Below, one piece after another: positions 19,552-40,759 of a stretch of 64,000 bases of DNA. Location: positions 62,001 to 126,000 of the forward strand of contig JAFXVJ010000042.1 of NCBI GenBank assembly GCA_017524615.1. Direction: 5' to 3'. This DNA comes from Clostridia bacterium (GTDB lineage: Bacteria > Bacillota > Clostridia > Christensenellales > Aristaeellaceae). Positions within the stretch are counted from its first letter, which is position 1. Each line of letters opens with the position of its first letter. The notes below the pieces were generated by a model that was not told the DNA's origin, made no database searches, and saw nothing but the letters and a program-made list of their open reading frames with translations. A program made the translations under genes and the position numbers.

Positions 19552-20003
19552 AGCCTTCCGCTCCGGAAGGCTCAGGGTGTCGACAAAGTCGACACCCTGC
19601 CATCGAAAGCCAGCTAAAGCAGTCTTTCGATAACCGCCCCGCGCTACGCCCTTCGGGCAGCGCGGATTTCGGGCGGCGATTCAAGAATCTCACGCCCTCA
19701 GCCCATCTTTGATGGGCGCTCAGGGGCATCAATTTTCTGTAAAATGGCATTTCTGGGCAGGAAAGCCCAGAAACGCTCATTTTACGGCCGAAAATTGATA
19801 GAGGAAGCGGTATAACCGCCTGCCCGTGGCCTTCCGGCCCGCACTCCGCTGAAAACCGGCCCAAGGGCAGGTTTTCCGGGCGCTCCGTGCCCCGGACCGG
19901 CAAAGCCGGTCCTGCGGATTAAAAATCGAAGGGCTGCGGCCCTTCGATGCATCCCGGGAATACTTTGTCGACAATCTGAGCCTTCCGCTTCGGAAGGCTT
20001 TTT
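19552..20003 (+). repeat. Structured element copy B1 inside a duplicated terminator
   Basis: The element is bounded by two near-identical hairpins: AGCCTTCCGCT / CGGAAGGCT at 19552-19572 without a T-tract, and again at 19979-19999 with one. Inside are a 12-bp hairpin (19573-19599, loop AAA), a hairpin ATCGAAAG / CTTTCGAT, several GC-rich hairpins, the 72-nt conserved core (19728-19799) and a conserved 3' hairpin (19925-19948). TGTCGACAAAGT at 19578 is perfectly complementary to ACTTTGTCGACA at 19962, closing the element. No ORF is plausible. Copy B2 lies at 40447-40759. Confidence 0.75.
19728..19799 (+). ncRNA. 72-nt covarying stem-loop core of element B1
   Basis: ATCAATTTTC / GAAAATTGAT closes the core, followed by an internal loop, the helix TAAAATG / CATTTTA, a second internal loop, and a terminal helix TTTCTGGGC / GCCCAGAAA. 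The same-length core at 40543-40614 differs inside helices only by compensatory pairs (A-T to T-A, T-A to G-C, T-A to C-G) and one T-A to T-G change. The internal-loop bases CTGT, GC, CGCT and CGGCC are unchanged. That it is transcribed is inference. Confidence 0.55.
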
Positions 20004-20132
20004 AACATGCGATCAGCGGCCGTTCATTGCTGAATGCATGTGTGTGACGGATGGGAAGCGCACCATGGATAACGAAAAAGAGCTCCCCCGGCAAGGTCTG
20101 CCAAGACATGATCCTTCCTCCAGCCGCCGCCC

Positions 20133-20162
20133 GCATATTTCCATATGTTTTCCCGCATACTA
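20133..20162 (+). promoter_or_regulatory. Candidate sigma-G (forespore) promoter of the gerA-type operon
   Basis: GCATA (20133-20137), 18-bp spacer and CATACTA (20156-20162) fit the sigma-G pattern, about 30 nt before the predicted TTG start. Germinant receptor operons are sigma-G dependent in Bacillus. Confidence 0.5.
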
Positions 20163-20192
20163 CCTTCATCCATGTTGCGGGGAGTGATTATT

Positions 20193-21722
20193 TTGTCCGA
20201 AACGGCCTGGGTTCCCCAGCCATCCGGCGTGATTGCGGGGGATTACCGGCAGAATCTGGGCATGATCCGTTCCGCCGCCCACGCGGAGGACAGCGAAGAT
20301 GTGATCGTGCATGAATTTCAGGTGTTGGGTCATGACGCCGCCCTGCTGTATGTGGATGGCCTGGTCAGCAGCCAGCAGATCCAGCAGTTCTTTTTGGAGC
20401 CCCTGCTGCGGGCCTCCGAGCCCGGAAAAGACATTTCCCTGGTGTTCCATTTGACGCATGCCGTGCTTCCCCTGGCCTCCCTGACCCCCACGTTTCAGCT
20501 GTCCACCCTGCTCACCCGGGTGTTCAGCGGCGATGCCGCCCTGATCGTAGATTCCATGGACGGCGCCCTGATCGCCGATGTGAAGGGGTTTGCGCGGCGC
20601 GGCATTGATCAGCCCATCAATGAAACGGTGGTAGCGGGGCCCCACGAGGGCTTCTCCGAATCCCTGCGGGACAACATCGTCCTGATACGCCGCCTGATAC
20701 GCACCCCCGCCCTGATCAGCGAAGCCCTGACTGTGGGCGACAAGGTGCCCACCCGCCTGTGCCTGATGTATCTGGACGGCATTGCCCGGAAAGAAACCGT
20801 GGATGAGGTGCGCCGCCGCGTGGAAGGCTGTCGGGTGGATTATGTGTCCTCCCTGGGCATGCTGGAGCAGCTTATCGAGGATGATCCCTGGGCGCTGCTG
20901 CCTCAGGCCGCTATGACCGAGCGGCCGGACCGGGCGGTGAGCTTTCTGCAGGAAGGCCAGACGGTAATCGTGATGGAAAACGCGCCGGCCGTGCTGGCCG
21001 TGCCCGTGGGACTGATTCATTTGTATCACGCGCCGGACGACTCCGCCCTGCGCTGGCAGTACGGCACGTTTCTGCGTCTGCTGCGGCTGGCAGGCATGCT
21101 GATTGCCCTGCTGCTGCCGGCCGTGTTCATTGCGCTGACAGTGTTTCACCCGGAGGGCATGTCCCTATCCCTGCTCACTTCCGTGGTGGAAAGTCAGGCC
21201 CGCGTGCCGCTGTCCCTCTTTGCGTCCATGCTCATCATGCTGCTGTTTTTCAGCCTCATCAACGAAGCCAGCACCCGGGTCCCCGGAGCAATGGGCGCCA
21301 GCCTGTCCATCGTAGGCGGACTGATCCTGGGCCAGGCTGTGGTGGAGGCCGATTTATTCAGCCCCCTGATCCTGATCGTGGTCGCCCTCAGCGGCCTGGG
21401 CAGCTATGCCGCGCCTTCCTTTTCCCTGACGCTGTCCCTGCGTATTGCTCAATTGCTGCTGGTGCTGGCAGCGGGGATCGGCGGGTATCTGGGGCTGGCG
21501 CTGGCGCTGTTCTGGCTGCTGACGCAGGTGTTTTCGCTCACCAGTCTGCGTTTTCCCTATCTGGCGCCGCTCTCCCCCGTTCGGCCCGCCAATCCGGACA
21601 GCGTGCTGCGCATGCCCGTGTGGCGGCAGCGCCTGCGGGGCGCCCTGGCCAATCCCTTCCACATGACCAGGGTGTCCGGACGCATGCGAGCATGGGATCA
21701 TCCCGGAAAGGAAAAGCCATGA
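20193..21722 (+). CDS. Spore germination protein GerA-type A subunit
   Basis: This ~509-residue member of the GerAA/GerKA family has a hydrophilic N-terminal half (LGMIRSAAHAEDSEDVIVHE through RRVEGCRVDYVSSLGMLEQL). About five membrane helices follow from residue ~290 (MLIALLLPAVFIALTVF, LSIVGGLILGQAVVEA, LVLAAGIGGYLGLALALFWL). It is the membrane subunit of the nutrient-germinant receptor in the spore inner membrane. I choose TTG 20193 because GGGGAG lies 8 nt upstream; in-frame ATGs at 20145 and 20172 lack an SD. It overlaps the next gene by 4 nt. Confidence 0.93.
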   Translation: MSETAWVPQPSGVIAGDYRQNLGMIRSAAHAEDSEDVIVHEFQVLGHDAALLYVDGLVSSQQIQQFFLEPLLRASEPGKDISLVFHLTHAVLPLASLTPTFQLSTLLTRVFSGDAALIVDSMDGALIADVKGFARRGIDQPINETVVAGPHEGFSESLRDNIVLIRRLIRTPALISEALTVGDKVPTRLCLMYLDGIARKETVDEVRRRVEGCRVDYVSSLGMLEQLIEDDPWALLPQAAMTERPDRAVSFLQEGQTVIVMENAPAVLAVPVGLIHLYHAPDDSALRWQYGTFLRLLRLAGMLIALLLPAVFIALTVFHPEGMSLSLLTSVVESQARVPLSLFASMLIMLLFFSLINEASTRVPGAMGASLSIVGGLILGQAVVEADLFSPLILIVVALSGLGSYAAPSFSLTLSLRIAQLLLVLAAGIGGYLGLALALFWLLTQVFSLTSLRFPYLAPLSPVRPANPDSVLRMPVWRQRLRGALANPFHMTRVSGRMRAWDHPGKEKP

Positions 21723-22846
21723 CCGGCCGCACCGCTGTTCATACACAGGAGCAAATGCTGGCCCAGCGAAGGGACGCCCGCCTCCGGGCCCAGTGCTCTC
21801 TGAGCGGCATGCAGCTGTATGCGCAGATCGCCATAGGCCTTTCCCTGTATCTTTTCGATCATGTCAGCACGCCCGGCTACCTGTCCCTGCTTTTGATGCT
21901 GCCTTACCTGGCACTGCTGTGCGCCCTGGCCCAATTCGTGAAAAAGCGCGCGGGAAGCGCGGAGGATCCCTTTTTCTTTGCCGTGGGAAAGCGGACAGGG
22001 CGGATGCTGATGCTGCCGCTGATCCTGATCCACCTCATGGACGCCCTGCTTCTTTTCTTCTCCCTGTGCGCCATTGCCGGTGACGTCATGCCGGATATGA
22101 GCCCAATGTGGGTGGCCCTGTTCATCGCGCTGGTCACGGCACTCTCCCTCTCCACTTCCCATCTCCGGCAGCCACAGGCCCAGATGGCCCACATGCTGCG
22201 CTGGCTGGTCGCCGGGATGCTGGGCTTTTGCATGCTGGCGGCCATCCCTCACGGCAGCGCCGCCCACTTTTTCCCGCTTTTGGGTTACGGTCCGGGCCGC
22301 ATCGTCCGCGGCGGATGCTGGATGTGCGGAAGCGCTGCTGGCGCTGTGTGGCCCATGCTGTCGCCCGCCGGGACGGATTCCGCGGACCGCCGTCAGCTGT
22401 TTCCAGCGCTCATGCGGGGATGGGGAGCGGGCGTGATCACCATGCTGTTCAGCGTGTGGCTGATGCCGGTTTACTTCATGGCCCGGCCAGAAACCCTGGG
22501 GTGGCGTTTGCTGGTGCTGACCAACATGACGCCTTCGGTGGCGGCCTGGTCTTTAGAGGTGGTGGGGCTGATGCTGCTGATGCTTCTGTGCCTCAGCGCC
22601 AGTGTGTCCCAGGCCGCCGGGCTGACGGCCCGGTGCGTGGGAAAGCGGCAGGCTCCGCCGCTATGGGGGATGATATTCACGCTGTGCCTGATTCCGGCAG
22701 GCGCTTTTGCCCTGCCCGGGATACAGCGATTTTTGACGAATGCCGCTCCCTGGCGGGGCGCCGCTGCCCTGGCAGTGCTGCTGGTAATGGCGTTCGGTGC
22801 GGCGGTCAAAAAGGAAAAGTCTCCCGCAAAGGAGGATGCGGCATGA
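21719..22846 (+). CDS. Spore germination protein GerA-type B subunit (permease-like)
   Basis: This 375-residue polytopic membrane protein has ten or so hydrophobic helices. It corresponds to the endospore-germination permease (GerAB) family of the amino acid transporter superfamily, which binds the germinant. The start SGMQLYAQIAIGLSLYLFDH is compatible with the family's first helix. Sequence identity to well-known members looks low, so position between the A and C subunits is important evidence. ATGA overlaps on both sides indicate translational coupling. Confidence 0.86.
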   Translation: MTGRTAVHTQEQMLAQRRDARLRAQCSLSGMQLYAQIAIGLSLYLFDHVSTPGYLSLLLMLPYLALLCALAQFVKKRAGSAEDPFFFAVGKRTGRMLMLPLILIHLMDALLLFFSLCAIAGDVMPDMSPMWVALFIALVTALSLSTSHLRQPQAQMAHMLRWLVAGMLGFCMLAAIPHGSAAHFFPLLGYGPGRIVRGGCWMCGSAAGAVWPMLSPAGTDSADRRQLFPALMRGWGAGVITMLFSVWLMPVYFMARPETLGWRLLVLTNMTPSVAAWSLEVVGLMLLMLLCLSASVSQAAGLTARCVGKRQAPPLWGMIFTLCLIPAGAFALPGIQRFLTNAAPWRGAAALAVLLVMAFGAAVKKEKSPAKEDAA

Positions 22847-23970
22847 AACGGGCGTTGATCCTGCTGCTGCTGTGCTGTTTTCTGCTCACCGGCTGCTCCA
22901 GCCGTCAATTGGAGGAGGAGCTGCTGGTGATCGTTCTGGCAGTGGATCAGCCGGAAGAAGGGCGCATCCGCCTGACGGTCAAGGTGCCGCGGAACGGAGC
23001 GGCCCAGCAGGAACCCGGCGGCGATCAATCATCTTACCTGCTGCTGGCAGCCACCGGCGCTTCCTTTGCTGCTGCCGTTTCCCTGCTGAACGCCACCACG
23101 CCCCGGCAGCTGAACTATTCCCAGGTGCGCGAGATCGTCATCGGGGAGCGCATGTCCGCTTCCTGCGATTTCGGCCTGCTATTGATGCAATTGGACGCCC
23201 TGCCACGCTTCCGCTGCTCCGCCGCCGTCATCATCTGCTGGGGAGAGGCCGGCGCCTTTGTGGACGCGCAAAAGCCATCGGTAGGCGCGCGGCTGAGCCG
23301 TCACGCGGAAACCACCCTCAGCACTTACGCCGGAAAGGGCTTCACCCCCATGACCAGCCTGTGCGAGGGCATGCGGGACCTGGGCTACGGATTTCGGGAT
23401 CCCCTGTTTGTGCTGGGCGCGGTGAATGATTTTTCTGCAGTGGAAAACCCTAACACAAGCAACGCGCTGGACGCCCTGCCCGGCGCCTTGCCCCGGCGCA
23501 GCGCCGACGGCATTGAATTGTTCGGCGCGGCTACTACGGACGGGTTATGCGTCAGCGGCACGCTGACCGGCTACGAAATGGCGCTGATCCACCTGCTGGA
23601 CGGTCATGTGCGCTCCCTTACGCTGCAGCAGGAGCAGGACGTGCCGCTTTCCATATTCGCGCAAAGGCCCGCCGCGCTGTCGGTGGACTTGTCCGGCCGC
23701 CCGGCGGTGCTGCGGGTGGCCATCTCCTGCGAAGCGCACTATCCGCCCGGTTATCCGCCGGATGCGGATGCCCTGCGGAATCGGCTGACGCAGGATATTT
23801 CTCAGATGATTCATCATCTGCAGTCCCTGCGGTGCGATGGCATCGGCTTTGCCAACACCGCCGTGCGTCAATTCCTCACCGTGCAGGATTGGGAGGCCGT
23901 CGGCTGGCGGGACGTATATGTTCAGGCGGAAGTGGAGGTGCAGGTGACGCTGGTTTGCCGGGAGGCGTAG
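22843..23970 (+). CDS. Spore germination lipoprotein GerA-type C subunit
   Basis: This 375-residue protein begins with a lipoprotein signal (MKRALILLLLCCFLLTGCSS; lipobox LTGC). GerAC/GerBC-type features follow, for example LVIVLAVDQPEEGRIRLTVK, LNYSQVREIVIGERM, and the C-terminal Ger(x)C domain VRQFLTVQDWEAVGWRDVYV. It is the lipid-anchored subunit of the receptor on the outer face of the spore inner membrane. It is last in the operon; no strong terminator was seen before the next promoter. Confidence 0.93.
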   Translation: MKRALILLLLCCFLLTGCSSRQLEEELLVIVLAVDQPEEGRIRLTVKVPRNGAAQQEPGGDQSSYLLLAATGASFAAAVSLLNATTPRQLNYSQVREIVIGERMSASCDFGLLLMQLDALPRFRCSAAVIICWGEAGAFVDAQKPSVGARLSRHAETTLSTYAGKGFTPMTSLCEGMRDLGYGFRDPLFVLGAVNDFSAVENPNTSNALDALPGALPRRSADGIELFGAATTDGLCVSGTLTGYEMALIHLLDGHVRSLTLQQEQDVPLSIFAQRPAALSVDLSGRPAVLRVAISCEAHYPPGYPPDADALRNRLTQDISQMIHHLQSLRCDGIGFANTAVRQFLTVQDWEAVGWRDVYVQAEVEVQVTLVCREA

Positions 23971-24047
23971 CCGGCCTGCGCAGCCGGAGGGAAGCGCCGC
24001 CCGAAACAAAATGACGCCTTATCTTCCCTGTGCCCTATGCTTATCCA

Positions 24048-24077
24048 TTGACAATTATGCCTGCTCCGGTGTACAAT
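24048..24077 (+). promoter_or_regulatory. Promoter for the CofE-like gene
   Basis: TTGACA (24048-24053), 18-bp spacer, TACAAT (24072-24077), 60 nt before the start. Confidence 0.75.
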
Positions 24078-24136
24078 GAATCGTATTCTTTTCCGTATTT
24101 TCCTTATTTTCCGTATACTGTATGGAGGTAATGGCT

Positions 24137-24883
24137 ATGGGCATCATCCCTTCCCGGAATCTGGAAGAGCAGCGCCGTGAAAAGGACGGCATCACATACT
24201 TCGACCGCGGCATCGTCACCGGCAAGGACGGCCGGAAATACGACCGTTTCGCGATTCAGACCCATTTCGTCCAGCGGGGCGAAAGCCAGAAGGATCTGGT
24301 GGAAAAATACGTGCGGCCCCTGTACCAGGAGGGCGATATGCTGTCCTTCGGCGCAAAGGTCATGTGCATGTGCGTGGAATCCGTGAAAACGCGGGACGAG
24401 GTGAAGCCCGGCTTCTGGGCGAATCTGCTGTGGCGCTTCGCCGGCATCAACACCACGGGCGTGGGCATGCATGAGCCCTATAAAATGCAGCTGGTGATCG
24501 ATATGTGCGGCCTGCCCCGGGTCCTGCTGGCGGCGTTCTGCTCCGCGGTCACGAAGCCCTTTGGCAAGCACGGCGTGTTTTACAAGATCTGCGGCAAGGG
24601 CGTGGGCGGCATCGACGGGTTCTATTTCCGCTCCAGCTTCGATGTATATAAGGAAATGGCCCTGATCAACCCCGATAACCCGACGGAGCTGTGCAACGAT
24701 CTGTTTAAGCAGACCGGCATCCCCGTGGTGCTGATGGACGCCAACGACCTGCAGCGCGATCAATTGGGCAAGTCCGACGGTTTTCCCCTCACCGACGATC
24801 AGATCCAGGACGCCATGCAGGACAACCCCTCCGGCCAGGGCGACGAATTGACGCCCCTGATCCTGATCCGGCCCGTGGCGTAA
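24137..24883 (+). CDS. Coenzyme F420-0:gamma-glutamyl ligase-like (CofE-like) protein
   Basis: This 248-residue protein resembles the CofE/FbiB-like family found in many Firmicutes that do not make F420. Examples are FAIQTHFVQRGESQKDLVEK, GVGMHEPYKMQLVIDMCGL and VTKPFGKHGVFYKICG. In methanogens CofE adds glutamates to F420-0. In Clostridia the activity is unproven, so the name reflects homology only. ATG 24137 is chosen over 24122 and 24131 because GGAGG then has 8-nt spacing. A secreted deacetylase follows 23 nt later. Confidence 0.72.
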   Translation: MGIIPSRNLEEQRREKDGITYFDRGIVTGKDGRKYDRFAIQTHFVQRGESQKDLVEKYVRPLYQEGDMLSFGAKVMCMCVESVKTRDEVKPGFWANLLWRFAGINTTGVGMHEPYKMQLVIDMCGLPRVLLAAFCSAVTKPFGKHGVFYKICGKGVGGIDGFYFRSSFDVYKEMALINPDNPTELCNDLFKQTGIPVVLMDANDLQRDQLGKSDGFPLTDDQIQDAMQDNPSGQGDELTPLILIRPVA

Positions 24884-24906
24884 GCCGCTTTGCAAAGGAA
24901 GCACCC

Positions 24907-25677
24907 ATGCGCGTCAAACGATTTTTTCTTATTCTGTGCGCGGCTTTTCTGCTTGCCTCTTCCGCACTAGCGGAATCGGTGTCTGAAAGCCAGGGCCTGG
25001 ACTGGCAGGAAAACGATCCCTGGCCCTTCGCCATCCAGTACGGCGACCGCAGCAAGCATCAGGTGGCCATCACCATGGATGACTGCTATGAGTTTGAGTG
25101 GGTGGAAAAGGCGTGGGAGCTGATCACCTCCTACGGCGGGGCGATGACCATCTATCCCATCGGCGAGCTGCTGAAGGAGGAAAACCTGCAGCCCGGCGAC
25201 CGGGAGATGTGGCAGAAAATCGCCGCCTCCTCCAGCGAAATCGGCACCCACACCCACCACCACCGCAAAATGTCCAAGCTTCGCGAGGACAACATGCTGC
25301 TCTACAGCAAATATCCCCAGCAGGTTACCGATCAATTGCTGGGCTATCATTATCCCCTGCGCACCCTGCGTCCCCCTTACGGCAATTACAGCGAAGCGTA
25401 TCAAAAGCAGCTGAAAATCGCGGGATACCATCATGTGATCCTGTGGGATATCGATACCACGGACGCCGGCGAGGTGCTAAGCCAGGTGCGCAACGGCAGC
25501 ATCATCCTCTTCCACGCCCGGAAAAAGGATTACACGTGCCTGGAAACGGTGATCCCCGCGCTGGCGGAGCAGGGCTACGAGATGGTCACGATCAGCGTGA
25601 TGCTGGGCCTGCCGCCCCTGGAGGCGCAGACAGAGCTGTTCGACTGGCGGGCATTCAAGAAAATGGTGAATCAATAG
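24907..25677 (+). CDS. Secreted polysaccharide deacetylase (NodB domain)
   Basis: This 256-residue protein has a signal peptide (MRVKRFFLILCAAFLLASSA, cleavage near ALA-ES) and a NodB homology domain: AITMDDCYE (metal-binding Asp pair), GTHTHHHRKMSK (the His-x3-His motif), and LRPPYGNYS, with a C-terminal IILFHA. Carbohydrate esterase family 4 enzymes remove N- or O-acetyl groups from peptidoglycan, chitin or xylan. The target is probably cell wall, but this is inference. It ends before a terminator that also carries the purB -35 box. Confidence 0.9.
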   Translation: MRVKRFFLILCAAFLLASSALAESVSESQGLDWQENDPWPFAIQYGDRSKHQVAITMDDCYEFEWVEKAWELITSYGGAMTIYPIGELLKEENLQPGDREMWQKIAASSSEIGTHTHHHRKMSKLREDNMLLYSKYPQQVTDQLLGYHYPLRTLRPPYGNYSEAYQKQLKIAGYHHVILWDIDTTDAGEVLSQVRNGSIILFHARKKDYTCLETVIPALAEQGYEMVTISVMLGLPPLEAQTELFDWRAFKKMVNQ

Positions 25678-25732
25678 CATCTGTTCCATCCACGACTGAA
25701 CCGATCCAGAATAAACGAAATCCGCTTTCTTT

Positions 25733-25763
25733 CCTCTCCAGCCGTTGCGCCGGGGAGGTTTTT
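25733..25763 (+). terminator. Terminator of the deacetylase gene, enclosing the purB -35
   Basis: Stem CCTCTCC / GGGGAGG (one G-T pair), 12-nt loop, then TTTTT. TTGCGC of the next promoter lies within the loop. Confidence 0.7.
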
Positions 25764-25773
25764 CCTGTATAAT
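25745..25773 (+). promoter_or_regulatory. Promoter for purB
   Basis: TTGCGC (25745-25750) in a terminator loop, 17-bp spacer, TATAAT (25768-25773) five bases after the T-tract. Confidence 0.75.
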
Positions 25774-25815
25774 GAGCAGGAACATCCGAAGAATCACGCA
25801 GGAGGAGCACGCCTT

Positions 25816-27255
25816 ATGCCGCAGGATCATCGGGGATACCTCTCCCCCTTTTCCACCCGCTATGCCAGCGAAGAGATGCAGTTTCTCTTCTCCGCCCAGA
25901 ATAAATTCAGCCTGTGGCGGAAGCTGTGGATCATTTTGGCCGAGTCCGAACAGGCCCTGGGCCTGCCCATTACCGATGCGCAGATCAGCGAAATGCGGGC
26001 ACACGTGGACGATATTGATTTTGACAGGGCCGCGGAATACGAAAAAAAGCTGCGGCACGACGTGATGGCCCACATCCACGCCTGGGGCGATCAGTGCCCT
26101 ACTGCCCGGCCCATCATCCATTTGGGGGCCACCAGCTGCTATGTGGGCGACAATGCCGACGTGCTGATCCTGCGGGACGGGCTGCATCTGATCCGCAAGC
26201 GGCTGATCGCCGTCATCCGGGCCTTGCGGGATTTTTCCGCCGATCACGCGGCCCAGCCCTGCCTGGCCTTCACCCATTTCCAATCCGCCCAGCCCACCAC
26301 CGTGGGGAAGCGCGCCACCCTGTGGCTCAACGACCTGACCCTGGACCTGGAGGAAATCGACTTCTGCCTTTCCACCCTGAAGCCCCTGGGCTGCAAGGGC
26401 ACCACCGGCACCCAGGCCAGCTTTTTAGAGCTGTTCCATGGGGATTTTGAAAAAGTGAAAAAGCTGGACGCGCTGATCTCCGAAAAAATGGGCTTTGCCG
26501 CCGCCGTGCCCGTGTCAGGGCAAACCTATTCCCGGAAAACGGACAGCCGCATCCTGAACGCTCTGTCCCAGATCGGCCAGAGCGCCCACAAATTCGCCAA
26601 CGACATCCGTCTGCTGGCGCACAAAAAAGAAATCGAGGAGCCCTTTGAGAAAAACCAGATCGGTTCCTCGGCCATGGCCTACAAGCGCAATCCCATGCGG
26701 TCCGAGCGCATGACGGCCCTCTCCCGCTTCCTGATTTCCAACGCCCAGAACGGCGCCATGACCGCCGCGGAGCAGTGGTTCGAGCGCACCCTGGACGACA
26801 GCGCCAACCGCCGATTGTCCCTGGCGGAAGGCTTTTTGTGCGCCGACGCCGTGCTGTCTTTGTACCTCAACATCGCCTCCGGCCTGGTGGTATACGACAA
26901 GGTGATCGAAAAGCACCTCCGGGAGGAACTGCCCTTCATGGCCACGGAAAACATCCTGATGGACGCGGTGGCGCGGGGCGGCGACCGGCAGGAATTGCAC
27001 GAGCACATCCGGGTGCACTCCATGGCCGCGGCCAACGCCGTGAAAATGGAGGGCAAGCCCTGCGACCTGCTGGCCCGCATTGCCGCCGACCCCACCTTCC
27101 AGGCGGACGAGGAAGCGCTGGAAGCCGCCCTCCAGCCGGAAAACTACGTAGGCTGCGCGGAAATGCAGACCCGGGAATACCTGAGTGCTGTCATTGATCC
27201 CCTGCTGGAGGCCAATGAAAACGAATCTGTCCGGGCGCAGGAGATCAACGTATAA
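25816..27255 (+). CDS. purB: Adenylosuccinate lyase
   Basis: This 479-residue fumarase/aspartase-superfamily enzyme has [20 protein letters not shown] and [29 protein letters not shown], and the superfamily signature [16 protein letters not shown] near residue 285. PurB cleaves SAICAR and adenylosuccinate, releasing fumarate, in purine synthesis. It is monocistronic, with a defined promoter and terminator. The length and the GTTGTQ variant fit the eukaryote-like/clostridial PurB branch. Confidence 0.95.
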
Positions 27256-27273
27256 ACCGTATAAGCGGAAAAG

Positions 27274-27309
27274 CTATTCCTCTTTTCCGATCGGAAAGAG
27301 GAATTTTTC
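27274..27309 (+). terminator. Terminator of purB
   Basis: Stem ATTCCTCTTT / AAAGAGGAAT around TCCGATCGG, followed by TTTTTC. Confidence 0.85.
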
Positions 27310-27376
27310 TCAATTTGGAACAAAATGCCTTGTCCGATCGTTCTATTTTGGAAAACGCTCAAGGAGGGGATGGATC

Positions 27377-28843
27377 ATGAAGCGCTTCTTGCTCATTTTG
27401 TGTGCGCTGACGCTCATCGGGGGCTGCGCACTGGCGGAGGATCGGCAAGACGAAGCCCACAAATACTATTACGTTGGCCCCGTTTCCGAGGGCTTCACCT
27501 GGGCCACCACCTGGGACGGCGAAGAGGATAAAGACATATTCGACGAAGGCATGGCCTACATCATCGACGTGTACGGCAACCGGCTCACCGACGAAACCTA
27601 TACCGTTTACAACCGGTATTTCAGCAATGGGCTGGTCACCGTGTACAAAGATGACAAGGCCGGGTGCATTGACACAGTGGGAAACGTGGTGATCCCCTTT
27701 GAGTTTTACGAGATTGAGGCGTTCAACTCTGCCGGGTATGCAATGGCAGCGTTGGGAGAAACCAGGGACACGGCCCTGTGGGGCATAATCGACCGGCAGG
27801 GTCAATGGGTGATCCCCTGTGAATGGGACAGCGTATCCATCCGTATTCCAAGCGAAGGCAGCGACAGGCTGGTCCTGGTGTGGAAGGACGGCAAGGCGGG
27901 TATCCTGAACATGGCAGGAGAAACCGTGCTCCCATGCGAATACTCCATGATGCAGGGGGACCATTTTTACGAAGGCCGCTTGCATATAAAGCGGGAAGGG
28001 GAAGGCTATGGCTATGTGAATGCGCTGGGCGAAATCGTTATTCCCTGCCAGTGGACCTACGCCGGCGATTTCAGCGAGGGGCTGGCCAGGGTGCTGGATG
28101 GAGAGAAAAGCGGCTACATTGATCGTGACGGCAACCTGGTGATCGGCCTGCCCGCGGACTGGCATGCCCGGGACGATTTCCACGATGGCCTGGCGCTGGT
28201 GCAAAACGAGCAGGGGCTGTACGGCTATATCGACCAAACCGGCGCTTTGGCGATCCCCTTTCAGTGGGAAAAGGCAGCAGCCTTCTCCGAGGGCGTGGCC
28301 CAGGTATGGCTTGATGGAAAATGCGGCTTTATCGATCGAACCGGCGCGTACATTTCTCCCTGCCAATGGGTAAATGCCGAGAAGTTTCTGGGCGGGCACG
28401 CCATCGTACAGGATGAAAACAGCCTGATGGGGATCATCGACCGGGAAGGCCGTTTGACCGTTCCCTGTGTCTATGCTTCACTTCAATATCTCAATTGCCA
28501 CGATGATTCCCAGAACCCGACCTACGAAATGAAGGACCGCATCCAGGGCGTGAACCTGTACGGACTGATCCGAGCCGACGGGGCAATCGTGTCGCCCTGT
28601 CAATGGTCGCTGATTTCTGGCGTTGTGAAAGACGGAATCGTGCAGGTATATCTGAGCTATGTCTCTGCCAGCACCTACGACGAATGGGATGGCCGGGAGC
28701 CTACCAGTGGCTTCATTGATCTGAACGGGAATGTGATCGTCCCCTGCGAGTATGATCGCGGCCATTACAGCGAAGGCTATTTCACCCTGATCAAGGACAG
28801 CCATCTGACCATCCTGGATCGGGCCGGAAATCTGGTATTCTGA
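27377..28843 (+). CDS. Secreted WG-repeat protein
   Basis: This 488-residue exported protein has a signal sequence (MKRFLLILCALTLIGGCALA) that could be read as lipobox IGGC or as SPase I site ALA-ED. Eight or more WG/KWG-type beta repeats follow, each with a G-x-I/Y-D-R-x-G core and an 'IPC-W' element (GIIDRQGQWVIPCEW, GYIDRDGNLVI, GFIDRTGAYISPCQW). WG proteins probably form beta-propeller-like surface modules; function is unknown. ATG 27377 has AAGGAGG 9 nt upstream. Confidence 0.9.
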   Translation: MKRFLLILCALTLIGGCALAEDRQDEAHKYYYVGPVSEGFTWATTWDGEEDKDIFDEGMAYIIDVYGNRLTDETYTVYNRYFSNGLVTVYKDDKAGCIDTVGNVVIPFEFYEIEAFNSAGYAMAALGETRDTALWGIIDRQGQWVIPCEWDSVSIRIPSEGSDRLVLVWKDGKAGILNMAGETVLPCEYSMMQGDHFYEGRLHIKREGEGYGYVNALGEIVIPCQWTYAGDFSEGLARVLDGEKSGYIDRDGNLVIGLPADWHARDDFHDGLALVQNEQGLYGYIDQTGALAIPFQWEKAAAFSEGVAQVWLDGKCGFIDRTGAYISPCQWVNAEKFLGGHAIVQDENSLMGIIDREGRLTVPCVYASLQYLNCHDDSQNPTYEMKDRIQGVNLYGLIRADGAIVSPCQWSLISGVVKDGIVQVYLSYVSASTYDEWDGREPTSGFIDLNGNVIVPCEYDRGHYSEGYFTLIKDSHLTILDRAGNLVF

Positions 28844-28846
28844 ACA

Positions 28847-28890
28847 AAAGCCGTTCTCCCGGGCAGCGCTTTCCGGGAGAACGGCTTTTT
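28847..28890. terminator. Bidirectional terminator between the WG gene and sigE
   Basis: AAAAGCCGTTCTCCCGG / CCGGGAGAACGGCTTTTT. The right arm reaches the sigE stop codon (28889-28891). Confidence 0.9.
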
Positions 28891-31482: not shown

Positions 31483-31485
31483 TTC

Positions 31486-33333
31486 TTACTCCGCCTTTCC
31501 CAGGATTTCCATGGCCATATCTTCCTGGAATTGATTGGTATACAGATTGTAGTACGCGCCTTTCTTCCGCAGCAGTTCCTGATGCGTGCCCATTTCCTTG
31601 ATCTTTCCGTCGTCGATGACCAGGATGCGGTCCGCCGTGCGGATGGTGGACAGGCGGTGAGCAATGATGAAGGAGGTGCGCCCGGAAAGCACCTTTTGAA
31701 TGGCATGCTGGATCATCTGCTCGGTCTGGGTATCCACGGAGGATGTGGCCTCATCCAGCACGAAAATCCGGGGATCGGCCAGGATGGCCCGGGCGAAGGA
31801 AATCAGCTGCTTTTCCCCGGTGGACAGGCGGCTGCCGCCCTCGCCCACGTCGGTATCGTAGCCCTTTTCCATTTTCAGGATGAAGGATTCAGCGTTCACC
31901 ATCCGGGCTGCATTTTCGATTTCCTCATCGGAAGCGTCCAGACGGGCGTAGCGGATGTTGTCCCGGATAGTGCCGGAAAACAGCCGCGGTTCCTGGAGCA
32001 CGTAGCCCAGGCTGCTTTGCAGCCACAGCTGGCTGCGCTCTTTGTAATTGACACCGTCGATTTTGATTTCCCCGGCGGTGGGCTCGTAGAAGCGGCAGAC
32101 CAGGTTGACCACCGTGGATTTGCCTGCGCCGGTTGGGCCCACCAGCGCCACCGTTTCCCCTGCCCTGACATGCAGGTTGAAATCGGTCAGCACCTTTTCG
32201 CCTTCTTTATACTGGAAATCCACATGGCAGAATTCCACATCCCCGCGAATGGCTGGCCAGTTTTCCTTCTTCGGGCTGAAGCTGTTGCCGAATACCGCCT
32301 CCACCTCCGGGGTATCCACAATATCCGGCTCCGTCTCCAGCAGTGTCAGCACCCGCTCCGCCGCCGCCTGGGCGCTCTGCATCTCGGCAAACACGTTGGC
32401 GATGTTGCGGATGGGCTCAAAAAACTGCATGGTGTAATTGACGAACAGCTGGAACACGCCCAGGGTCATGCCTCCCGGCAAGCCCACCTGCTGGCCGCCC
32501 TTCCACAGGGCCCAGGCGGTGGCCAGGGAACCAAGGGACACCACAATGGGCAGGTACATGGCGGACAGGGACGCCGCACGGACGGAGGATTTTTTCATAT
32601 CCCGGGTGAGGACGGTGAATTCCTCCATGTTCTTGTCCTCCAGCACCAGGGTCTTGGTGGTTTTGGCGCCCATGATCCCTTCGTTGAAGGCGCCGGTGAT
32701 TTTGCTGTTGGTTTTGCGCACCGCGCGGTAGGATTTCAGGATCCTCTGTTGGAACCACCAGGAAATCAGCGCCAGGGGCGGCACCACCAGCAGCACCATC
32801 AGCGTCAGCCTGACATTGTTCAGGAACATGGCCACGCTGGCCGCCACGATCATCACCGCGCCCCAGGCCAGATCCAGCAGGCTCCAGCCGATGGTTTCCG
32901 ACAGGCGCTGGGTGTCGCTGGTCATGCGGCTCATCAGATATCCCACCGGCATCCGATCGTAGTAGGAAAAGGGCAGCTCCTGCAATTTGCGGAAGGCCTG
33001 TTTCCGGATGGTGTAGCAGGCGCCCACCTCCACCTTGCCGCCCAAATACAGGAAGTAGAAGATGGCCGCCACCTGAATGGCCAGCAGCGCCACATAGATC
33101 ACGATAAACAGCGGCAGATTGCCTGTTTCGGCGGCGTGGGTCTCCGTTGGAATGAAATGGTCGATGGCATAACTGGTCATCAGGGGAAACAGCACGTCGC
33201 ACCCCGCCGTAACGCCCATCACCACGATGAGCTTAAATAAATCCTTATGATATTCTTTGGCGTACCGCAGGATCTTTTTCCACAGCGACCAGGAAAATCT
33301 CTGGGTATAATCCCGCTCCTCAAACTGTTGCAT
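31486..33333 (-). CDS. ABC exporter half-transporter, BmrD-like (catalytic Walker B)
   Basis: This 615-residue protein has an N-terminal six-helix exporter domain (residues ~25-310) and a C-terminal nucleotide-binding domain: Walker A GPTGAGKST, Q-loop YVLQEPRLFSG, signature LSTGEKQLISFARAI, Walker B IFVLDEATSSVD with the catalytic Glu, and H-loop IIAHRLST. The signature deviates from LSGGQ, while the partner gene has LSGGQ but a degenerate Walker B. That is the asymmetric pattern of heterodimeric exporters such as BmrC/BmrD. ATG 33333 overlaps the partner gene by 14 nt. Confidence 0.9.
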   Translation of the reverse strand: MQQFEERDYTQRFSWSLWKKILRYAKEYHKDLFKLIVVMGVTAGCDVLFPLMTSYAIDHFIPTETHAAETGNLPLFIVIYVALLAIQVAAIFYFLYLGGKVEVGACYTIRKQAFRKLQELPFSYYDRMPVGYLMSRMTSDTQRLSETIGWSLLDLAWGAVMIVAASVAMFLNNVRLTLMVLLVVPPLALISWWFQQRILKSYRAVRKTNSKITGAFNEGIMGAKTTKTLVLEDKNMEEFTVLTRDMKKSSVRAASLSAMYLPIVVSLGSLATAWALWKGGQQVGLPGGMTLGVFQLFVNYTMQFFEPIRNIANVFAEMQSAQAAAERVLTLLETEPDIVDTPEVEAVFGNSFSPKKENWPAIRGDVEFCHVDFQYKEGEKVLTDFNLHVRAGETVALVGPTGAGKSTVVNLVCRFYEPTAGEIKIDGVNYKERSQLWLQSSLGYVLQEPRLFSGTIRDNIRYARLDASDEEIENAARMVNAESFILKMEKGYDTDVGEGGSRLSTGEKQLISFARAILADPRIFVLDEATSSVDTQTEQMIQHAIQKVLSGRTSFIIAHRLSTIRTADRILVIDDGKIKEMGTHQELLRKKGAYYNLYTNQFQEDMAMEILGKAE

Positions 33334-35143
33334 AGCCCGTATTCTCCTCTTTGAATTCTTCCTCCAGCGCGGTCTGGATATTGAAGATTTTGCTGTAGAG
33401 GCCACCGGAATGGATCAATTGCTGATGCGTGCCCTGCTCGGTGACCCGGCCGTCCTCCACGACCAGGATCAGGTCAGCCTGGCTGAGGGTCACGATCCGA
33501 TGGCTGATGATGATCGTGGTGGTGTTCCGGCTGTGCTTTTTCAGGGCGCTCCGGATGGCGGCGTCGGTTTCTGTGTCCACAGCGGACAGGGAATCATCGA
33601 AAATCAGGATGTCGTTTTCCTTCATCAGGGTGCGGGCAATGGCCACGCGCTGCTTCTGTCCGCCGGACAGGGTGACGCCTCTTTCGCCCACCAGCGTGTC
33701 ATAGCCCTTGTCGCTGTCCAGGATGAATTCCTTGGCGGCGGCGTCGGTCACCGCCCGGTCGATTTCCTCCTCCGATGCGTCCCGATGGGCAATGGCCACG
33801 TTTTCCCGGAGCGTTTTGGAATACAGGAAGGGCTCCTGCAGCACCAGGCCCACCCGGGACCGAAGGTACTGCCGGTCGATTTGGCTGATCGGTATGCCGC
33901 CGATGCGGATCTCTCCCTGCCTGACCTCGAACAGCCGCTGAATCAAATGCACCATGCTGGATTTTCCGCTGCCGGTGGCGCCCAGGATGGCCACTGTTTT
34001 CCCGGCGGGGATCACAAAGCTCATATCCCGCAGCACATCCCGGTTTTCCTCGTAGCCAAAGGTGACATGGTCAAACACGATATCGCCCTTCAGCGACGGC
34101 CGCAAGGCATTCGGCTCCTCCGGCTCCTCCTTTTCCCGCAGGATCTCATCAATGCGCTCCAGCGCCACGCTGCTCTTGCCCGCGTCGCTGAGGATGCGGC
34201 CCAACTGACGGATGGGGAACAGCAGCTTCCAGATGTAGGAGGTGAAAATGATCATGGTGCCCACCGTTATATCCCCCCGCACGGCAAAATATACGCAGGC
34301 GAGGAGGGTGATCATGGACTGGGTCATGCTCATCATGTCGCTGGTGGCCCAATAAACGGCCAGCAGGTTGCACAGCTTGAAGGTCTTTTTCCGATAATCG
34401 GCGTTGACCTCCTCAAACTTTTCCACTTCATATTCCTGCTGCCCGAAGGCGCGCACCACCCGCACGCCGGTCAGGTTTTCCTGTAAAACGGCGCTCATCT
34501 TACCCTCCGCCTCGTCGGACAGGCGGAAATTCTTGATGACCCATTTGAAAAAGAGATAGGCAAATGCGAACAGCCCAGGGATCATGATCATGCTGATCCA
34601 GGTGATCCGGGCGTTTTCCCGGAACAGATACACCAGCGCGAACGCGATCATCATCAGCGCGTTCACCACCTGCATCAATTGCATGGACAGAAACCGCCGC
34701 ACCGTTTCCACATCGCTGGTGCACCGCTGCACCAGGTCGCCCGTTTCGGCTTTCACGTGATAGGCAAAGGGCAGATGCTGAATGTGGTTATACAGCCTTT
34801 CTCTGAGCGTGAGCGCCACATTTTCACCGGCCACCGACAGGGCGCGGCTTTTCATAAAGGAAAACAGGCCGCTGATGATATTCAGCCCCACCAGGGCCAG
34901 GCCCACGATCCACAGATTCTGCTTCATGAATGCGGGGCCGCCCCAGCCGTCCACCCAGGCGTTGATAAAGCCCGGCATACGGCTGGGCTTGCCCTGCAGA
35001 TAATAATCCAGCGTTTCCGCAAGCAGGATGGGCGTGATGAATTCAATGATCACCGCCATCACCGTGCCCAGCAGTCCGGCCAAAAAATGTCCGATATTAT
35101 TCCCGATCAAGCTGCCCATCAGGCGTGTGCTGCGCTTGTGCAT
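33320..35143 (-). CDS. ABC exporter half-transporter, BmrC-like (degenerate Walker B)
   Basis: This 607-residue half-transporter is the first structural gene of the operon. Its membrane domain contains HLPFAYHVKAETGDLVQRCT, typical of multidrug exporters. The NBD has Walker A GATGSGKSS, Q-loop LVLQEPFLYS, canonical LSGGQKQRVAIARTL, and Walker B ILIFDDSLSAVD with Asp in place of the catalytic Glu. So one of the two ATP sites in the predicted heterodimer should be inactive. It is preceded by a ~215-nt leader with a small ORF and a terminator. The start is ATG 35143; a TTG at 35158 is in frame. Confidence 0.9.
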   Translation of the reverse strand: MHKRSTRLMGSLIGNNIGHFLAGLLGTVMAVIIEFITPILLAETLDYYLQGKPSRMPGFINAWVDGWGGPAFMKQNLWIVGLALVGLNIISGLFSFMKSRALSVAGENVALTLRERLYNHIQHLPFAYHVKAETGDLVQRCTSDVETVRRFLSMQLMQVVNALMMIAFALVYLFRENARITWISMIMIPGLFAFAYLFFKWVIKNFRLSDEAEGKMSAVLQENLTGVRVVRAFGQQEYEVEKFEEVNADYRKKTFKLCNLLAVYWATSDMMSMTQSMITLLACVYFAVRGDITVGTMIIFTSYIWKLLFPIRQLGRILSDAGKSSVALERIDEILREKEEPEEPNALRPSLKGDIVFDHVTFGYEENRDVLRDMSFVIPAGKTVAILGATGSGKSSMVHLIQRLFEVRQGEIRIGGIPISQIDRQYLRSRVGLVLQEPFLYSKTLRENVAIAHRDASEEEIDRAVTDAAAKEFILDSDKGYDTLVGERGVTLSGGQKQRVAIARTLMKENDILIFDDSLSAVDTETDAAIRSALKKHSRNTTTIIISHRIVTLSQADLILVVEDGRVTEQGTHQQLIHSGGLYSKIFNIQTALEEEFKEENTGYATV

Positions 35144-35171
35144 GGTGAATACCCCCAATAAATCAGTATAG

Positions 35172-35203
35172 AAAAAGCCATCGGCGCTTTTGCTGCCGAT
35201 GGC
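35172..35203 (-). terminator. Leader terminator (attenuator) of the ABC exporter operon
   Basis: On the minus strand GCCATCGGCAGC / GCGCCGATGGC is followed by TTTTTC, lying 29 nt upstream of the first ABC gene and inside its transcript. The 5' arm segment TCGGCAG is complementary to CTGCCGA near the end of the leader ORF, giving a competing antiterminator. Confidence 0.8.
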
Positions 35204-35235
35204 ACATATTCCGCACAGGCCGTTCTGAAAAACGG

Positions 35236-35328
35236 TTATGCGTCACTCGGCAGGCCGCAAAAAAGCGCAGAAATCCCCTTCCATGCAACAAAAACGATTT
35301 GACGAATGCAATTCACAGTGCTGTACAT
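35236..35328 (-). CDS. Putative 30-residue leader peptide of the ABC exporter operon
   Basis: The ORF reads MYSTVNCIRQIVFVAWKGIS then ALFCGLPSDA and ends in TAA. An AAAGGGGG purine-rich SD lies about 8 nt before the ATG. It begins about 30 nt after the predicted transcription start. Its final codons contain CTGCCGA, which can pair with the terminator's left arm 40 nt downstream. Position and size resemble the BmrB leader peptide that controls bmrCD in B. subtilis by ribosome-mediated attenuation; the sequence itself is not recognisably related. Confidence 0.55.
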   Translation of the reverse strand: MYSTVNCIRQIVFVAWKGISALFCGLPSDA

Positions 35329-35363
35329 TTCCGCGGCCCCCTTTCTTCTAAAATTTCCCTATC

Positions 35364-35392
35364 AGTATAACGGCACGGCATAGAAATGTCAA
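35364..35392 (-). promoter_or_regulatory. Promoter of the ABC exporter operon
   Basis: On the minus strand TTGACA (35387-35392), 17-bp spacer, TATACT (35364-35369). A palindrome AACATTTT / AAAATGTT lies just upstream (35405-35433) and may be an operator. Confidence 0.85.
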
Positions 35393-35444
35393 CCCCATTT
35401 CGCGAACATTTTCCATTTTCTCGGCAAAATGTTCTGTATATTCG

Positions 35445-35477
35445 ATTATCAAAAAATTTTTATTGTTTTTCGATAAT
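35445..35477. promoter_or_regulatory. Operator-like inverted repeat upstream of the DUF2975/XRE cassette
   Basis: ATTATC-AAAAA ... TTTTTC-GATAAT forms an imperfect 11-12 bp inverted repeat just before the promoter at 35484. A small XRE repressor encoded in the same operon is the obvious candidate ligand. Confidence 0.35.
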
Positions 35478-35483
35478 TATATA

Positions 35484-35512
35484 TTGATTTTTGGAAACTC
35501 GCATGGTATTAT
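35484..35512 (+). promoter_or_regulatory. Promoter for the DUF2975/XRE cassette
   Basis: TTGATT (35484-35489), 17-bp spacer, TATTAT (35507-35512), 22 bp before the start codon. Confidence 0.6.
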
Positions 35513-35534
35513 ATCCATGAAAGGAGTGGTCGGC

Positions 35535-36026
35535 ATGAATCAAAAACGCATTTCTCATCTGCTGATTGCCGCTGGCGCGCTGGCCGCCGCGGGGATCCTG
35601 GCCCTGGCCCTGCTCTACGCGCCGGCGCTGGCCTCGGCCTGTCTGGAGGCGTTTAAAGAAACGCCGAACATCCAGGGGCTGTACCGGTTCGGCCTGGCGG
35701 GCGTATGGACCGAATCGCTGATTTTCCTGCTGGCGCTGGCGGAATACATGCTGATTTCCGTCCGCATCGGCAGGAACCGTTCTTTCTGCCCTGAAAACGT
35801 GCGCGGCCTGCGCCGGATCGCCCTGTATCTGAGCGTGGACGGCGTTTTGTGGCTCCTGGCCATCATCGCCCCCAGCTTCATCTTCCACATCCTCATCGGC
35901 CCGATCTGGGTGCTGTTCCTGCTGATTTCCATGGGCACTTTCGCCCTGGCGCTGCTGGCCTGGTGTCTGGGCGGCCTGCTTTCCCGCGCCGTGGAGATCC
36001 AGCGGGAAAACGACCTGACGGTGTAA
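35535..36026 (+). CDS. DUF2975 family membrane protein
   Basis: This 163-residue protein has four hydrophobic helices (LLIAAGALAAAGILALALLY; ESLIFLLALAEYMLISV; LSVDGVLWLLAIIAPSFIF; VLFLLISMGTFALALLAWCL). It matches the DUF2975 layout of B. subtilis YoaS. The downstream 71-residue XRE protein corresponds to YozG, the usual partner. ATG 35535 has AAGGAG 8 nt upstream. Function is unknown; the pair resembles a membrane sensor with its regulator. Confidence 0.82.
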   Translation: MNQKRISHLLIAAGALAAAGILALALLYAPALASACLEAFKETPNIQGLYRFGLAGVWTESLIFLLALAEYMLISVRIGRNRSFCPENVRGLRRIALYLSVDGVLWLLAIIAPSFIFHILIGPIWVLFLLISMGTFALALLAWCLGGLLSRAVEIQRENDLTV

Positions 36027-36039
36027 GGAGGGGAACGGC

Positions 36040-36251
36040 ATGATCCGCGTGGATTTGGACGTGATGCTGGCCCGCCGCAAAATGAGCATGACGGAATTGA
36101 GCAATCGGGTGGGCATCACCATGGCGAACCTGTCCATCCTCAAAACCGGCAAGGCGAAGGCCGTCCGCTTTTCCACCTTAGAGGCCATCTGCCGGGCGCT
36201 TTCCTGCCAGCCGGGGGATATCCTGATCTATGAGGAGGGGGGAACACAGCC

Positions 36252-36255
<4 letters not shown>
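36040..36255 (+). CDS. Small XRE/YozG-type transcriptional regulator
   Basis: This 71-residue protein is nearly all helix-turn-helix: MLARRKMSMTELSNRVGITM, then ANLSILKTGKAKAVRFSTLE, ending CRALSCQPGDILIYEE. This is the Cro/CI-type HTH_26 family found beside DUF2975 genes. It likely autoregulates the operon, possibly at the inverted repeat 35445-35477. Its stop overlaps the GTG start of the next gene. Confidence 0.9.
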
Positions 36256-39198
<2,943 letters not shown>

Positions 39199-39224
39199 TC
39201 CTTTTCATTCATCCCGTATCCCTG

Positions 39225-39253
39225 TGCCGTCCCATTGCCGGGACGGCATTTTC
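39225..39253 (+). terminator. Terminator of gdhA, enclosing the next promoter's -35
   Basis: Stem TGCCGTCCC / GGGACGGCA with a 6-nt loop, followed by TTTTC. TTGCCG straddles loop and right arm. Confidence 0.8.
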
Positions 39254-39263
39254 ATGTTATAAT
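39235..39263 (+). promoter_or_regulatory. Promoter for the amidohydrolase gene
   Basis: TTGCCG (39235-39240), 17-bp spacer, TATAAT (39258-39263), five bases after the terminator T-run. Confidence 0.75.
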
Positions 39264-39288
39264 ACGGAAAAACACAGGAGGAAGCCCT

Positions 39289-40431
39289 ATGCTGCTCATC
39301 AAAAACGGACTGATCCACGACGCTATTCACGAAACACCTTATCGCGCGGACATCCTGGTGCAGGACGGCAAAATCACCGCCGTCGGCCAGCATCTGGAAG
39401 CCGACAACGCAGAAATCATCAACGCGGAAGGGCTGAGCGTTTATCCCGGCTTTGTGGACGCGCACAGCCATCTGGGCCTGGACGCCGACGGCGTGGGCTA
39501 CGAAGGCTGGGACTACAACGAAATGAACGACCCCGTTTCACCCCAGATGCGGGGCATCGACGGGTTCAAGCCCATGCAGCCCTGCATGAAAACGGCGGCC
39601 CTGGGCGGCGTGACCACGGTGTGCACCGGCCCCGGCAGCGCCAACGTGCTGGGCGGCACCTTCTGCGCCGTCAAAACCGTGGGTAGGCGGGTGGAAGACA
39701 TGCTGGTGAAGGAAGCCGTCGCCATGAAGTGCGCGTTTGGCGAAAATCCCAAGCGCTGCTATCGGGAAAAGGGCGTATCCACCCGCATGACCACCGCTGC
39801 CCTGCTGCGGGAGACGCTGTTCAAAGCCAAGGAATACATGGAAAAGAAAGAGGCTGCCGGAAACGATATCAGCAAGAAACCCGCCTTTGACCTGAAAATG
39901 GAGGCGCTGATCCCGGTGCTGAAGCGGGAGATCCCCCTGAAAGCCCACGCCCACGCGGCGGAGGACATTTTTACCGCCCTGCGCATCGCCCGGGAATTCA
40001 ACGTAAAAATCACCCTGGAACACGTAACGGAAGGCCATCTGATCGCGGACGAGCTGGCCAAGGAAAACGTGCCCTGCGCCGTGGGCCCCTCCCTCACCAA
40101 CGCCAGCAAATTCGAGCTGCGAAACAAAACCTTCGACACCCCCGGCATCCTCAGCAAAGCGGGCCTGCAGGTGTCCATCATCACCGACGCCCCCGTGATC
40201 CCCCAGGAATACCTGCCCCTGTGCGCGGGCCTGGCCATCAAGCACGGTATGGACCCCTTTTCCGCCCTCCAGGCCATCACCATCAACCCCGCCCGCCACG
40301 CCGGCATCGAGGACCGGGTAGGCTCCATCGAAGTGGGTAAGGACGCCGACCTGGTGCTTTGCGCCGGTTCCCCCTTCGATACCGACCCGGACATAAAGAC
40401 GGTATATATCCTGGGCCAAAAGGTGGAATAA
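39289..40431 (+). CDS. Amidohydrolase, imidazolonepropionase-like subgroup
   Basis: This 380-residue amidohydrolase-superfamily protein has the metal ligands in VYPGFVDAHSHLGLDADGVG (HxH), KAHAHAAEDI and LEHVTEGHL (His ligands), and ITDAPVIP (Asp). It ends with a beta-sandwich segment VGSIEVGKDADLVLCAGSPF. The subgroup includes imidazolonepropionase-like and D-aminoacylase-like enzymes of unknown substrate in Clostridia. No hut genes are nearby, so a histidine-degradation role is unlikely. AGGAGG precedes ATG 39289. Confidence 0.9.
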   Translation: MLLIKNGLIHDAIHETPYRADILVQDGKITAVGQHLEADNAEIINAEGLSVYPGFVDAHSHLGLDADGVGYEGWDYNEMNDPVSPQMRGIDGFKPMQPCMKTAALGGVTTVCTGPGSANVLGGTFCAVKTVGRRVEDMLVKEAVAMKCAFGENPKRCYREKGVSTRMTTAALLRETLFKAKEYMEKKEAAGNDISKKPAFDLKMEALIPVLKREIPLKAHAHAAEDIFTALRIAREFNVKITLEHVTEGHLIADELAKENVPCAVGPSLTNASKFELRNKTFDTPGILSKAGLQVSIITDAPVIPQEYLPLCAGLAIKHGMDPFSALQAITINPARHAGIEDRVGSIEVGKDADLVLCAGSPFDTDPDIKTVYILGQKVE

Positions 40432-40446
40432 CCGGCCCTATCAAAA

Positions 40447-40759
40447 AACCTGCGGTTCCGGTGTGCGGACCGCAGGTTGCAGAGCATCGGCAAAGTCGAT
40501 GCTCTGCCAATGAAAGTCAGAAAGCAGACTTTCATTGGTCACATCAATTTTCTGTAATAGGGCATTTCCGGGCATGCATGCCCGGAAACGCTCCTATTAC
40601 GGCCGGAAATTGATAGCGGATGCAGCATTCTGCTGCTCCTCGGCGACGCACATGTCGCCGCCTGCGGATGAGAATCGAAGGGGCTGCGGCCCCTTCGATG
40701 CATCCCCGGGGTTTGTTGACAGTTAAAACCTGCGGTTCCGATGTCGGACCGCAGGTTTT
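40447..40759 (+). repeat. Structured element copy B2 inside a duplicated terminator
   Basis: The 313-bp element is flanked by two near-identical hairpins, AACCTGCGGTTCCG / CGGACCGCAGGTT at 40447-40478 (no T-tract) and 40725-40759 (with TTTT). Internal modules match B1 in order: an 11-bp hairpin with GCAAAGT loop (40479-40507), the hairpin CCAATGAAAGT / ACTTTCATTGG (40507-40538), the 72-nt core (40543-40614), a variable GC-rich region, the hairpin ATCGAAGGGG / CCCCTTCGAT (40674-40699), and TTTGTTGACAG near the right end. The rightmost hairpin also terminates the minus-strand pseudogene. Confidence 0.75.
40543..40614 (+). ncRNA. 72-nt covarying stem-loop core of element B2
   Basis: Exactly the length of the core at 19728-19799. 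Helices are ATCAATTTTC / GGAAATTGAT, TAATAGG / CCTATTA and TTTCCGGGC / GCCCGGAAA. The non-paired CTGT, CGCT and CGGCC blocks are identical to B1, and the apical loop differs. Transcription is inferred, not shown. Confidence 0.55.

Follow-up and report, generated by a model that had tools for sequence, protein, structure and literature searches.

The two copies of a 72-nt core found in the window (the whole stretch of 64,000 nucleotides analysed here) belong to two short elements, E1 and E2, which are very probably IS1182-type MITEs that target transcription terminators by structure. We favour this reading because the ends of the elements and the duplications of whole hairpins around them are similar to those of IS1182 insertion sequences (ISs) from the same genus. 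The initial annotation had proposed a new structured RNA or structure-dependent mobile DNA. The second half of this proposal is well supported by terminal inverted repeats, duplicated terminator hairpins, an empty site, and IS1182 ISs with similar ends and the same type of duplication. The first half is not supported, since the compensatory changes proved to be nearly free of wobble pairs.

Architecture of the element

The two cores lie exactly at the positions first reported, 19728-19799 and 40543-40614. The pairs 16/54, 18/52 and 27/42 are indeed changed on both sides between the copies, pair 9/64 goes from T-A to T-G, and the nearby 3' hairpin has one extra G-C pair in the other copy. The apical loop has diverged freely between them. 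Homology between E1 and E2 extends beyond the core over the entire unit between the two terminator hairpins (Table 1), and the core looks like the middle of a small gene-less mobile element rather than a stand-alone RNA gene.

Searching the window's genome (2.55 Mb in 59 contigs, 81.6% complete) with the 451-bp neighbourhood of E1, we found the same larger unit elsewhere. Eight units were aligned. Seven of them contain the core and measure 244-406 bp; the eighth, decayed and 150 bp long, lacks it. They are built in the order 5' hairpin, hairpin 2, core, hairpin 4, hairpin 5, hairpin 6 and 3' end, and the 3' end repeats the 5' end in inverted orientation, as terminal inverted repeats. The pattern of the 5' hairpin is present at all seven core-bearing places with no more than two mismatches. 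E1 shares 98% identity with the C22 copy, and C41, C34 and C26 of the same genome (G000) are decayed remnants. Neither E1 nor E2 contains an open frame of transposase length, for which the elements are too short.

Hairpins and modules have been gained or lost wholesale among the aligned units, and two optional modules account for much of the variation in length. One, located between hairpin 2 and the core, is found in E1, C22 and C42 and is missing from E2, C40, C32 and C15. In E1 (19632-19726) it has relatives outside elements, with 80% identity over 44-61 bp (G000:C22:82753-82813 and G000:C41:47800-47843), and it is perhaps a second repeat family. The other fills the gap between hairpins 4 and 5 in E1 (19820-19893); L106, L108 and L073 were noted at this site, where some relatives have a different insert.

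Table 1 Features of E1 and E2 in the window
Element	Feature	Positions	Strand
E1	Left host terminator hairpin copy, without T-tract	19552..19572	+
E1	5' end hairpin; its first arm holds the left terminal inverted repeat	19573..19599	+
E1	Hairpin 2	19601..19631	+
E1	Optional inserted module	19632..19726	+
E1	Core hairpin (72-nt core plus one base on each side)	19727..19800	+
E1	Hairpin 4	19807..19819	+
E1	Hairpin 5	19894..19912	+
E1	Hairpin 6 (the 3' hairpin reported initially)	19925..19948	+
E1	Right terminal inverted repeat	19963..19978	+
E1	Right terminator hairpin copy (19979-19999) and T-tract	19979..20003	+
E2	Left host terminator hairpin copy, without T-tract	40445..40478	+
E2	5' end hairpin (left terminal inverted repeat)	40480..40506	+
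E2	Hairpin 2	40507..40538	+
E2	Core hairpin (72-nt core plus one base on each side)	40542..40615	+
E2	Hairpin 4	40622..40636	+
E2	Hairpin 5	40641..40660	+
E2	Hairpin 6 (the 3' hairpin reported initially)	40674..40699	+
E2	Right terminal inverted repeat, diverged, without the final CTG	40711..40723	+
E2	Right terminator hairpin copy and T-tract; positive in terminator scan	40725..40759	+

A simple terminator scan flagged the right hairpin of E2 and missed that of E1; on the plus strand of E1 it flagged the core hairpin instead, with numbers close to those of shuffled sequences. The gene 3' of E1 (20145-21722) matches a GerA spore germination protein (PF03323, 466 bits), and toward the end of an open frame 3' of E2 (40775-41092, minus strand) a Gly/Pro/Met-rich motif is repeated.

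Distribution among relatives

A covariance model of the core matched 32 of 120 relatives: all 29 genomes of the genus, the window's own included, and three of the 91 relatives outside it (G039 and G066 from the family and G118 from the order). Both strands were counted and at most 40 candidates were scored per genome, so the copy numbers are rough. Among the matches listed, several lie at contig ends (G009:C12:16-89, G009:C48:12-85, G011:C22:12-85 and G016:C3:14-87); assemblies of metagenomes therefore probably break at this repeat, so that its copies are undercounted. An exact pattern, run over named genomes, hit 12 stretches in MAGs of Clostridia, Clostridiales or Christensenellaceae, six of them from a single rumen MAG, with goat reticulum and red deer also represented. 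We retrieved and located 60 places in relatives.

Duplication of terminator hairpins and an empty site

Intact copies have one and the same hairpin on both sides, specific to the locus, and a T-tract follows only the right one; C32 has the right hairpin only. To evaluate this across 69 collected copies, we dropped 11 with short flanks and aligned the left with the right flank of the remaining 58. Among 457 left-right flank pairs taken from different loci, which served as the null, the maximum local alignment score was 33. This value was exceeded in 15 of the 58 copies. Their repeats are 21-34 bp long and differ in sequence from locus to locus; when the right copy was folded, pairing reached to within 4 nt of both ends in 14 of the 15. 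None of the 15 left copies was scored as followed by a T-run, and 14 of the right copies were; the remaining right copy is that of E2, whose T-tract lies partly inside the repeat. Relative to the T-tract, the element has a single orientation. Since the hairpin sequences differ and the length of the duplication follows that of the hairpin, the transposase probably reads a structure.

In the other 43 copies, many of them with decayed ends, no flank repeat scored above the null maximum. The flank windows were set by hand, which cut off part of the left hairpin of L141, and the right copy of L108 folded poorly within the stretch that was cut. Judged by eye, L110, L107 and L151 appear duplicated at scores of 32, 30 and 29, no higher than the null maximum, and are not among the 15; L078, L080 and L081, outside the tested set, also appear so. 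A rough regex test, which includes six cases accepted by eye, gave a duplication for 12 of the 21 copies whose 3' end was recognised and for nine of the other 37.

An empty site was found in one orthologous case, the rplL terminator. In G019 (L182) the element is flanked by two hairpins here, and in G010 (L183) there is a single hairpin and no element, while the sequence beyond matches that of L182; L183 is 96% identical over the 451-bp query. In G020 (L193) an element sits at the corresponding terminator, where the hairpin sequence is different. An empty site for E2 was sought through its upstream gene, which was matched in 17 of the 29 genomes, and at the readable loci among the 15 inspected the intergenic DNA could not be aligned.

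Probable partner insertion sequences of the IS1182 family

A transposase with the PF13751 domain is encoded in 11 of the 29 genomes of the genus; none of this kind (PF13751 / IS1182) was detected in the genome of the window (81.6% complete), in spite of the 98% identity of its copies E1 and C22. Two of the ten PF13751 loci examined, L156 and L157, lie between two exact copies of a terminator hairpin (22 and 33 bp, respectively), and a T-tract is present on the right side only. The L157 transposase has an intact frame of 479 amino acids and was assigned to IS1182 by NCBIfam (431 bits, cut-off 270), with which Pfam agrees; that of L156 has one stop inside the aligned range. In addition, a related transposase is present in 32 of 250 genomes of the family. 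Of 30 scanned family loci, six had exact hairpin repeats (22, 25, 31, 32, 21 and 25 bp). The 22-bp repeat is that of L156, already mentioned, and the final two in this list surround transposases with only 36-37% identity to the query. The remaining 24 loci, many of which are fragments, had no exact hairpin repeat. This makes seven distinct ISs with exact whole-hairpin repeats (22, 33, 25, 31, 32, 21 and 25 bp), and a T-run accompanies the right copy in six of them, L228 being the one without.

The ends of these ISs resemble those of the element: compared by eye, with no significance test, CAGACCATCGGCAAAGTC / TTTGAAGATGGTCTG of L156 are similar to CAGAGCATCGACAAAGTC / TTTGCCGACAGTCTG of the element C15. 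No sequence of the element's interior was traced to the IS beyond these ends. Thus the element has the ends, the lack of a transposase gene and the shared type of duplication of an IS1182-family MITE, and its presumed partner transposase was detected in congeneric genomes but not in that of the window.

Group IIC introns also insert beside terminators, and the element lies directly at the foot of the terminator stem in a single orientation, as a retroelement or a relative of a group II intron might. Such an origin is nevertheless highly improbable, given that the ends are common to an IS encoding a DDE transposase, that the target duplications are 21-34 bp long and that no Rfam intron was matched in the window at gathering score.

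Covariation and wobble pairs

A consensus fold derived from six core variants has 30 pairs, seven of which already showed double changes. Of the blocks that had been described as unpaired and unchanged, CTGT and part of CGGCC are in fact paired in this fold, and CGGCC reads CGGTC in relatives. We analysed pairing in 57 distinct cores (58 rows) out of the 69 copies, after 11 presumed duplicates or near-duplicates had been left out. Standard pairs make up 98.0% of the 1680 pair cells, and 21 of the 30 pairs are changed on both sides. None of 500 shuffles did as well, and pairing fell to 45-48% when the partner was shifted by one column. The covariation whose loss in further copies had been named as a refutation thus held in many more of them. 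Nor did a known family turn up: at gathering score, Rfam 15 matched only a tRNA in the window (5997-6067), and relaxed scans of both core neighbourhoods gave matches far below the gathering scores.

The imperfect cells, though, fit an RNA less well. The core has 5 GU, 16 AC and 17 other mismatched cells, where the invariant pair U12-G62 (57 cells, with which GU would be 62) and pair 23/50 were left out. In hairpins 1, 2 and 4 we counted 0, 1 and 1 GU vs 1, 8 and 1 AC; the counts for hairpin 2 include the hairpin of the inserted module (E1, C22 and C42) and those for hairpin 1 some neighbouring hairpins. As a control, SRP RNA sequences from this genus, 27 different ones taken from 29 of 30 hits, had 69 GU and 1 AC outside columns with a GU consensus, and tRNAs, of which there were only six distinct ones, had 12 and 0. 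By column type, the numbers were 5 GU and 11 AC for the core (without 12/62) vs 22 and 2 for SRP RNA (consensus-GU columns included). Fisher's exact test gave 1e-12 on cells, which are not independent, and 1e-4 on column types. Both structures were predicted by a program that allows GU but no AC pairs, and this biases the counts toward GU. Pair 23/50 (23 AC, 17 GC, 14 AT, 2 CG, 1 GT and 1 CC over 58 rows) would have strengthened the GU deficit if included; between its A-T and G-C states it passes through A-C, a mismatch on the plus strand but a wobble on the minus strand.

The covariation expected of a structured RNA was found, and tolerance of G-U wobble on the transcribed strand was not. Since the imperfect cells do not favour G-U, the palindromes appear to be kept as DNA, and covariation poor in wobble fits DNA palindromes better than RNA. 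A role as RNA is less likely. On this reading the element would spread as a mobile repeat but be selected at the RNA level as a functional RNA of a new kind, such as a 3'-UTR domain or a processed small RNA. The strong covariation with conserved bulges speaks for it, and the element is probably transcribed, since copies lie downstream of genes in the sense of transcription and the left hairpin lacks a T-tract. We nonetheless consider it improbable in view of the rarity of wobble in the core and hairpins 1, 2 and 4, unlike in SRP RNA and tRNAs, the lack of an Rfam match, and the coming and going of entire hairpins and modules between copies.

The covariation could also be mostly mutational, with template switching at replication perfecting imperfect palindromes and the internal hairpins under no selection, which would be compatible with the MITE reading. 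Changes restricted to Watson-Crick pairs are in line with this, and so are stem blocks swapped in their entirety, of which hairpin 4 is an example. Simple correction would, however, tend to erase bulges, some of which persist together with an unpaired GCC/GTC block in 55 of the 58 rows. The minimum spanning tree of the cores is also not what one would expect from one-step correction: its 17 short links carry 10 single changes and 1 double, and its 27 long links 65 double, 40 single and 10 other double changes. Because single changes dominate the short links and double changes the long ones, loss of decayed copies accounts for the pattern better than one-step correction, and we regard the mutational explanation as possible but rather doubtful.

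Discussion

For an IS1182-type MITE, the following course of insertion may be proposed. The IS1182 transposase would recognise the terminator in its folded state, as a cruciform or as a single-stranded hairpin, and would join the element at both feet of its stem; repair of the gaps would then copy the entire stem-loop. The downstream hairpin would stay next to its T-tract, leaving the upstream gene with a terminator, and transcription should cross the left hairpin, which has none, and the element and end at the right copy. As transcription would still stop there, the insertion would be nearly neutral. The internal hairpins would be kept as DNA palindromes and not for an RNA product, through the transposition competence of source copies, templated repair of palindromes, or both.

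A more far-reaching version is speculative, and we think it unlikely to hold in full: the system would be addicted to terminators, with a branch of IS1182 that reads the terminator hairpin together with its T-tract, cuts at the stem feet and copies the whole terminator, and the chain of DNA hairpins in the MITE would be a structural signal for transposition. Covariation would then be poor in wobble because the hairpins are kept paired as DNA and not as RNA.

The natural series in which the length of the duplication tracks that of the hairpin supports the view that a DDE transposase chooses its target by structure. The element also illustrates how transposons can settle in intergenic terminators and yet leave a terminator behind. 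It is also a warning for RNA discovery, as DNA palindromes can yield strong covariation; a count of G-U against A-C cells offers an inexpensive check on this.

Related behaviour is known from IS1630 and IS1272, and the combination of features described here was not found in the literature that we surveyed by title or abstract start. Judged in this way, neither the literature on IS1182 with stem-loops, palindromes, MITEs or terminators and on terminator insertion nor that on terminator MITEs of Clostridia, repeats of Christensenellaceae and IS1630 describes the element family. IS1630 inserts at terminators, and to our knowledge no hairpin-chain MITE belongs to it. This IS, attributed to Calcutt et al. 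(1999), is the clearest precedent for duplicated inverted repeats (PMC3317919, PMC7648426): in Mycoplasma fermentans, the junctions of four M64 copies are duplicated over 16, 23, 25 and 26 bp (PMC3317919). Its transposase is of the IS30 type and its host a mycoplasma, whereas the partner transposase here is IS1182.

IS1272 of staphylococci resembles the partner of our element in its transposase, which belongs to the IS1182 family, and in a target that is an inverted-repeat structure and not a sequence (PMC5678879). The same paper cites Siguier et al. for some IS1182 members that target palindromes, without detailed data, so palindrome targeting by IS1182 is in itself not new. IS1272 reportedly takes the place of the stem-loop, with no duplication left behind, whereas our element has the hairpin twice around it and once in the empty site. 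The authors do, however, draw duplication of the whole stem-loop as a possible alternative pathway (PMC5678879), and the hairpin duplication seen here matches that drawing. QMITE2 of Coxiella is likewise short and non-autonomous, with terminal inverted repeats and transcripts that would fold stably (PMC10969869). Its direct repeats measure 7-9 bp, whereas the repeat of our element is a whole terminator hairpin, and, unlike QMITE2 as described there, the interior of our element is a chain of covarying hairpins.
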